Assembly: GCA_028710525.1 (NCBI GenBank)
Contig: JAQTTY010000001.1
Coordinates: 371,143-435,142, forward strand
Direction of reading: 5' to 3'
Source of the DNA: Gallionella sp.
GTDB lineage: Bacteria > Pseudomonadota > Gammaproteobacteria > Burkholderiales > Gallionellaceae
Length of the DNA stretch: 64,000 nt
The position numbers were made by a program, and so were the translations under genes. Below are positions 14,681-15,038 of this stretch, piece by piece. Under the pieces are notes generated by a model, which made no database searches, had not been told where the DNA came from, and saw only the letters and a program-made list of their open reading frames with translations. Each line of letters opens with the position of its first letter. Positions within the stretch are counted from its first letter, which is position 1.

Positions 14681-14706
14681 AGGGCACAACCGTTAAGTTG
14701 TGCCCT
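14681..14706 (-). terminator. Terminator of the tRNA-Ser/tRNA-Asp transcript
   Basis: AGGGCACAAC (14681-14690) and GTTGTGCCCT (14697-14706) form a ten-pair stem with a six-base loop. Read on the minus strand the stem is followed by a T-rich run (TTCTCTTTTC). It lies ten bases downstream of tRNA-Asp. Confidence 0.85.
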
Positions 14707-14715
14707 ACTCAGTGT

Positions 14716-14792
14716 TGGCGGAGTGGACGGGACTCGAACCCGCGACCCCCGGCGTGACAGGCCGGTATTCTAACCAACTGAACTACCACTCC
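14716..14792 (-). tRNA. tRNA-Asp (GTC)
   Basis: The minus strand reads GGAGTGGTAGTTCAGTTGGT and ends CGTCCACTCCGCCA. The acceptor arms GGAGTGG/CCACTCC pair fully, the T-loop is GGTTCGAGTCC, and the anticodon GTC sits in CCTGTCACG (complement of 14756-14758). The 3' CCA is encoded. It is 20 bases downstream of tRNA-Ser. Confidence 0.96.
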
Positions 14793-14812: not shown

Positions 14813-14900
14813 TGGCGGAAGCTGTGAGATTCGAACTCACGGACGATTTCTCGTCGGCAGTTTTCAAGACTGCTGGTTTAAACCACTCACCCAAACTTCC
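14813..14900 (-). tRNA. tRNA-Ser (TGA)
   Basis: The minus strand reads GGAAGTTTGGGTGAGTGGTT, with anticodon loop CTTGAAA (anticodon TGA) in a GCAGT/ACTGC stem. A long variable arm GCCGACGAGAAATCGTC follows, as in class II tRNAs, then T-loop GTTCGAATC and acceptor end GCTTCCG with encoded CCA. Its 5' half is duplicated upstream. Confidence 0.95.
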
Positions 14901-14907
14901 ATATGCG
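14864..14907. repeat. 44-bp direct repeat, copy inside tRNA-Ser
   Basis: The 44 bases from TCAAGACTGCTGG to CATATGCG, covering the anticodon region, D-arm and 5' acceptor strand of tRNA-Ser plus seven upstream bases, are repeated exactly at 14995-15038. The two copies start 131 bases apart. Confidence 0.9.
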
Positions 14908-14994
14908 TTTACTTCGTAAGCTAGGCGGCAGTTTTGGCTACGACATAACCTAAAGGTTAGTCTGCGCCGCCATAAGCCGCTACGCGACGTATGG
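14908..14994. other. 87-bp spacer between tRNA-Ser repeats with nested hairpins
   Basis: The stretch between the two 44-bp repeats contains a perfect TAACCT-AA-AGGTTA hairpin (14946-14959). It is enclosed by GGCGGC (14924-14929) and GCCGCC (14966-14971). Together with one repeat copy it makes a 131-bp unit that looks inserted or tandemly duplicated into the tRNA leader. No ORF is supported. Confidence 0.6.
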
Positions 14995-15038
14995 TCAAGA
15001 CTGCTGGTTTAAACCACTCACCCAAACTTCCATATGCG
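14995..15038 (-). pseudogene. tRNA-Ser 5'-half fragment (second repeat copy)
   Basis: Exact copy of the first 37 bases of tRNA-Ser plus seven upstream bases, truncated in the anticodon loop. It lacks the variable arm, T-arm and 3' acceptor strand, so it cannot make a tRNA. It lies between the likely promoter and the intact tRNA-Ser and would be part of the precursor's 5' leader. Confidence 0.85.

Follow-up and report, generated by a model that had tools for sequence, protein, structure and literature searches.

In the window, i.e. the whole stretch of 64,000 nucleotides from Gallionella sp. that was analysed, a complete tRNA-Ser(UGA) gene is preceded by an exact copy of its own 5' half, and a small element consisting of two hairpins (hereafter e) lies between the two. 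We consider it probable that e is a REP-like mobile hairpin that inserted after the bases GA into one of the local duplicates of the gene, while an intact copy was retained and the halves were kept identical by concerted evolution. This reading builds on the observation of a dispersed hairpin, a fixed position after the anticodon, a partial duplication beside an intact copy, a varying array length and an insert-free allele.

The first-pass annotation of this DNA had described an exact direct repeat of 44 bp over the first half of the tRNA and seven leader bases, and the two copies (14864-14907 and 14995-15038) are indeed identical at 44/44 positions, at an offset of 131 bp and with an 87-bp spacer between them. 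Read along the minus strand, the order of the locus is tRNA 5' half, e, 9 nt, leader and complete tRNA-Ser:

15104-15076, minus strand: promoter-like TGGACA-17-CAGAAT, sigma-70-like, upstream of the outer half
15032-15038, minus strand: seven leader bases common to both copies (inner counterpart 14907-14901)
14995-15031, minus strand: outer tRNA-Ser 5' half, linear nucleotides 1-37, same as in the intact gene
14935-14994, minus strand: element e, about 60 nt, two hairpins and a final A
14969-14994, minus strand: hairpin A of e, CCATACGTCGCGTAGCGGCTTATGGC, CCATAC...TTATGG (family form CAACACGCC-GNA-GGCTTGTTGC)
14936-14968, minus strand: hairpin B of e, here GGC-GCA-GACTAACC..GGTTATGTC-GTA-GCC
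14926-14934, minus strand: AAACTGCCG, second copy of the 9 tRNA nucleotides after the anticodon (3' strand of the anticodon stem)
14901-14925, minus strand: 25-nt leader preceding the intact gene, i.e. 18 nt (14925-14908) plus the 7 repeated bases
14813-14900, minus strand: intact tRNA-Ser(UGA), the inner, functional copy (ARAGORN; Rfam RF00005, 55.9 bits)
14716-14792, minus strand: tRNA-Asp(GUC) (ARAGORN)
14681-14706, minus strand: intrinsic-terminator-like hairpin after tRNA-Asp

The 3' end of the outer half is the last base of the anticodon (A). The stable-RNA promoter had been expected beyond the outer copy, which is where the promoter-like site is situated, and the same site precedes tRNA-Ser in relatives both with and without the insert. 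Downstream of tRNA-Ser, tRNA-Asp is probably co-transcribed, and the transcript is likely to end at the terminator-like hairpin.

Comparison with relatives splits the 87-nt spacer into three parts, namely e, the 9-nt tRNA copy and 18 nt of leader. Because the 3' strand of the anticodon stem is copied on the far side of e, the element is framed by both strands of that stem. The leader of the intact tRNA resembles the inner leader of the relative G063 and the remnant leaders of G012, G022, G030 and G009. With respect to the inverted repeats noted earlier in the spacer, the TAACCT/AGGTTA pair is real, but the outer GGCGGC/GCCGCC pair could be upheld in part only: the structure that is conserved throughout the family consists of hairpins A and B, and some of the GGCGGC is copied tRNA. 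Hairpin B forms the conserved core of the family (GGC-GNA-RCTAACC..GGTTATGYC-GNA-GCC, with a GNA/GNA internal loop). The support for the structure of e is covariation across 156 copies, rather than folding energy. Among these 156 distinct copies of hairpin B, the kinship of which inflates the counts, one pair is A-T in 83 and G-C in 55, the middle base of GNA is free on both sides (5': A in 55, T in 49, G in 29 and C in 23) and, within the 3-bp foot, the inner pair is T-G in 34 versus C-A in 2. The excess of T-G over C-A at the foot indicates that the tRNA-sense strand acts single-stranded, either as RNA or as single-stranded DNA. Folding of the 87-nt spacer alone gave a modest gain over shuffled sequences (z -1.2), the whole 248-nt leader plus tRNA scored z -2.3 against shuffles, and a scan with Rfam returned nothing but tRNA above the gathering threshold.

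A search for the spacer as a dispersed element had also been suggested, and part of it does recur in the same genome and in many relatives. In the genome of the window, part of e is found again at C8:173068 (95% over 38 nt), with weaker sites at C23:145649, C23:101758 and C8:48478. A covariance model of hairpins A and B was applied to a sample of 41 genomes of the genus and had matches in 24; the complete genome G063 has 20 sites, G025 has 17, and many others have none. Across 84,980 species genomes, an exact degenerate pattern for hairpin B was found in 78 contigs, and almost every one of these is labelled as Gallionellaceae, Nitrosomonadales, Methylophilaceae or other Betaproteobacteria; the structural pattern for hairpin B gave 0 matches in 417 kb of shuffled sequence, and the plasmid and phage collections contained no match to e. 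Intergenic copies often lie inside a longer mosaic repeat that is common to many Gallionellaceae (..GACCAGTCGA-e-AACAACGCAGGG.. or ..e-ACAAACCGGGGTCGCC..; L046, L048, L065, L083, L085, L091, L122 and L130).

Association with tRNA-Ser is recurrent. Of 83 unselected hairpin B sites, 11 precede a tRNA-Ser gene by 43-108 bp, all of them on the strand of that gene, and just one is close to a different tRNA (tRNA-Met). We searched 399 genomes of the GTDB order with a model of the unit (half-tRNA, e and 9 nt); hits about 45 nt long, which represent ordinary tRNA-Ser genes, were discounted and the strong loci were read individually. The arrangement was thereby confirmed in at least 25 genomes of the order, at tRNA-Ser genes with the anticodons UGA, GGA and CGA, and in every case the gene is split after the anticodon. 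Among 274 genomes of the class, nearly all from outside the order, the only genome to match the unit model was that of the window (E 1e-8). An exact-pattern search for the outer junction over the order recovered 3 genomes, the pattern being too strict to be informative. The two halves are spaced by 131 bp here and by 119-183 bp elsewhere, and tandem arrays are found as well: five half copies in G056 (141, 127, 127 and 127 bp apart), three at 140 bp in G347, three at 127 bp in G123, and two in G202 and others. Both G123 and G202 also contain a mirror form downstream of the intact tRNA, which consists of a shortened 5' end, then an e-type element and finally an entire 3' half with 100% identity to the gene. 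Of the two halves of the gene, the copy that carries e thus retains one in full and roughly 8-13 nt of the other. In the arrays at L246, L252 and L259 the outer half differs from the downstream intact tRNA, as if units of different tRNA-Ser genes had been joined. We found no description of the tRNA-Ser arrangement in the literature (open-licence papers).

The same type of partial duplication is present at protein-encoding genes, the names of which were assigned on the basis of recognisable N- or C-terminal sequences. An exact repeat of at least 12 nt in the two flanks occurs in 20 of 76 unselected hairpin B sites that had sufficient flanking sequence, versus 1.9% when flanks are swapped between loci. 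These loci include tRNA-Ser, the 5' end of radC (L129), the 3' end of an acyl-CoA dehydrogenase-like gene (L069, L070), the spacer between ftsA and ftsZ, with e in antisense orientation (L118), and the 3' end of a gene for a protein with the C-terminus ENPAILEQLKEVIK (L068, L072, L101), which, judging from this sequence, we take to be acetyl-CoA synthetase. Further loci that were read are hslU (L268, G075:C2), a ubiA-like gene (L265, G075:C62) and a second radC (L103). At radC, hslU and the ubiA-like gene an intact copy adjoins the interrupted one, and by manual translation the interrupted copy is open through e at L265, L268, L103 and L129, where its TGA stop and the intact gene's start codon overlap. 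Such an overlap would couple the translation of the two copies. The open frame through e, hand-read in the ubiA-like gene, hslU and radC, is DNTPRSGLLRRRLTFRLCRSQ, and one radC copy carries a 1-nt frameshift. By eye, the outer and inner copies of hslU differ at synonymous positions only. At L203 (G063:C1:1225600-1227700) the end of a gene is present as repeated units about 80 bp in length; every unit contains a stop codon and has hairpin B after it. In copies collected by sequence similarity, the left flank ends with GA in 47 of the 69 copies that have an assignable left end, and the right flank starts with A in 69/69; the GA could be the first bases of e itself instead of part of the target. 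Most intergenic copies of e show no duplication of their flanks, and consequently duplication either is not obligatory for insertion or has since decayed. The first-pass suggestion that the locus is the scar of a mobile element that uses the tRNA 5' half is borne out as to a small dispersed element and a duplicated 5' half, but the spacer is composite and e is not a tRNA-half element, because most of its copies sit away from tRNAs.

A shorter allele had been expected in close relatives, and G019 indeed has an uninterrupted tRNA-Ser gene without the insert. In G019, the promoter region and the leader can be aligned with those before the outer half in the window (the similarity of the leaders being read by eye), which implies that the outer half marks the ancestral position. 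The situation that had been named as speaking against an inserted element, i.e. a unique spacer and no shorter allele, was thus not encountered. Hairpin A has the same unusual form (CCATAC..TTATGGC) in the window and in G063, and their inner leaders are similar, which suggests that their units derive from one older insertion; in G009, G012, G022 and G030 no more than traces of the leader and of the 9-nt copy appear to be left. Within the genome of the window, and likewise within G063, the outer half is nevertheless identical to the intact tRNA. This identity includes T6, which is present in the window and in G019 but absent from G063. Over 34 loci the two halves differ at 81 of 1224 positions and the 20-nt leaders, compared without gaps, at 414 of 680; the halves are identical in 20 of these loci, and the outer half has decayed at L003, L096 and L075. 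The simplest cause of the identity of the halves is turnover of the array by recombination between them. An exact outer half beside a near-random leader could also reflect selective constraint on that half, or a duplication whose boundary coincides with the mature 5' end. The duplication includes the leader at L245 (22/28 alike, by eye), L243 (16/16) and L248 (16/20). Copying of a mature tRNA half from an RNA template was considered and rejected: a boundary at nucleotide 1 fits with it, but the duplicated leaders at L243, L245 and L248 oppose it as a general rule.

The same data bear on the alternative that the unit is a selected RNA module, in which the half-tRNA and the two hairpins regulate the maturation of tRNA-Ser or act as a small RNA or decoy. 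The frequent identity of the outer half beside near-random leaders, the promoter upstream of that half, and the maintained pairing with its G-T/A-C asymmetry, which points to the tRNA-sense strand as the one acting single-stranded, all speak for such a role. Nevertheless, an intermediate of single-stranded DNA fits the strand asymmetry too, e is also located at unrelated genes and antisense to ftsA-ftsZ, the unit is patchy, being absent or decayed in G019, G009, G012, G022 and G030, and the outer half itself has decayed at three loci. We therefore regard an RNA module as distinctly unlikely. A related and still rather unlikely possibility, to which we would give somewhat more room, is that e represents a new mobile class acting on single strands, whose insertion machinery itself duplicates 30-75 bp of target around it, with the half-tRNA units also being transcribed and selected as RNA; essential genes, in particular serine tRNAs with the split just behind the anticodon, could then be invaded and not be lost.

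Of the kinds of repeat that have been described, e is nearest to the REP/BIME repeats and to the Rickettsia palindromic elements (RPE) in genes. Like the REP/BIME repeats (GTAG and CGTC superfamilies; PMC3733652), e is a small hairpin repeat that is mostly intergenic and in some cases intragenic, and it is found in tandem together with its flanks; REP clusters are likewise often reiterated in tandem together with flanking DNA segments, and intragenic REPs are known (PMC3733652). Hairpin B, which is dispersed and typically 33 nt long, falls within the 20-40 bp of REP/GTAG hairpins occurring at many loci, and its GNAG foot is reminiscent of theirs. These similarities would favour a classic REP/BIME, moved by RAYT transposases, with clusters that carry flanking DNA along. 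However, in place of the unpaired GTAG tag, e has a second base that is free on both sides and a symmetric GNA on the 3' side, and the repeat-flanked RAYT gene of REP/GTAG families has no counterpart here: a Y1 (RAYT-type) transposase (PF01797) is absent from both the window's own genome (G000) and the copy-rich G063, and no copy of e is present in 20 loci centred on Y1 genes of the genus. In the flanks that were inspected, the RAYT genes of the genus are accompanied by palindromes other than e, e.g. one beginning with GTAGGGTGGGCACG. At L217, L220 and L222 the RAYT-like Y1 genes are flanked by different palindromes of their own (e.g. GTAGGGTGGGCACGT..). Moreover, unlike REP/BIME, e is low-copy (at most 20 listed sites per genome) and re-enters after the serine anticodon beside an intact gene. 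A classic REP/BIME is thus a very unlikely description of e, and a RAYT transposase was rejected as its present mover, being absent from G063 and not adjoining the copies. The analysis tied no mobilising enzyme to e.

The RPE are short palindromes within coding genes with the frame remaining open through them, as they are cited in PMC3733652. In common with these, e resides within protein genes, and in the insertions read by hand a frame appears to stay open through it, the radC copy with the 1-nt frameshift apart; it is set apart from the RPE by that description, as an intact copy stands alongside and the interrupted frame extends to the intact gene's start codon. As for other candidates, no parent transposon that would make e a MITE was found, and there is no fixed short target duplication, the flank duplication being variable or absent. 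An integron attC site was considered and rejected, because in e no more than a short tip separates the conserved TAAC and GTTA arms and the foot is a different one. Group I introns of tRNA anticodon loops share the position of e within that loop, but e is too short, matches no intron in Rfam and stands in a copy that is not a complete tRNA.

Anticodon loops of tRNAs are common targets of integrases, and a duplicated half-gene split at the anticodon is typical of integrative elements and satellites at such sites. The locus might accordingly be the remnant of an integrase-borne island at tRNA-Ser, of which the inside was lost and attL and attR were left. In contrast to such elements, e consists of about 60 nt of non-coding hairpins without genes, and either half of the tRNA can be the displaced one. 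The 131 bp hold no recombinase gene, the loci that were read include no relative with an integrase between the tRNA-Ser halves, the minimal spacing of 119-183 bp recurs in many genera and at three isoacceptors with the hairpins as sole content, and both tandem units and the same arrangement at the starts of protein genes exist, so that an island remnant is highly improbable. In G011:C62 (5094-5159 and 9441-9539) a tRNA-Ser 3' fragment and the complete gene are located on one strand at a distance of about 4.3 kb, as expected of an integrative element in tRNA-Ser and unlike the e unit. Slippage, which had been put forward earlier as well, or unequal crossing-over that duplicated the tRNA 5' half beside an unrelated spacer would account for the exact direct repeat and for tandem arrays, but is hardly tenable because the spacer holds a repeat family of many loci and genera at a constant position after the anticodon.

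For the preferred reading, i.e. a REP-like hairpin that entered a duplicated gene, we infer steps of insertion and template switching. In the first, e would enter one gene copy after GA. Serine UCN tRNAs plausibly are the hot spot among tRNAs because they alone have NGA anticodons, in which GA is followed by AA at the loop. In the second step, replication may stall at the hairpins and the template may switch, about 10 nt past e, to the intact copy, with the order half gene, e, 9 nt, leader and intact gene as the resulting product. Our confidence in this switch is clearly lower than in the general reading. The shared tract GGTCT at the downstream junction in G123 and, at L245, the resemblance between the outer leader and the copied tRNA bases fit with a switch at microhomology, in these few loci. 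As the targets include essential genes, survivors would be found only among products that retain an intact copy. Later, the 131-bp-type unit would expand and contract in tandem, which would render the halves identical and sometimes delete the insert. The precursor RNA would start before the outer half, and e would probably be transcribed and then removed in 5' processing.

One precise spot of essential serine-tRNA genes appears to have been entered repeatedly by a short repeat, across many betaproteobacterial genera, with an intact gene retained beside it through local duplication. This points to a hitherto undescribed manner in which small repeats get into essential genes and the cell survives. 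In case insertion and duplication are a single event, this would constitute an unrecognised route for selfish hairpins into essential genes. The units provide natural arrays in which the concerted evolution of 37-bp repeats and the processing of long tRNA leaders may be studied.
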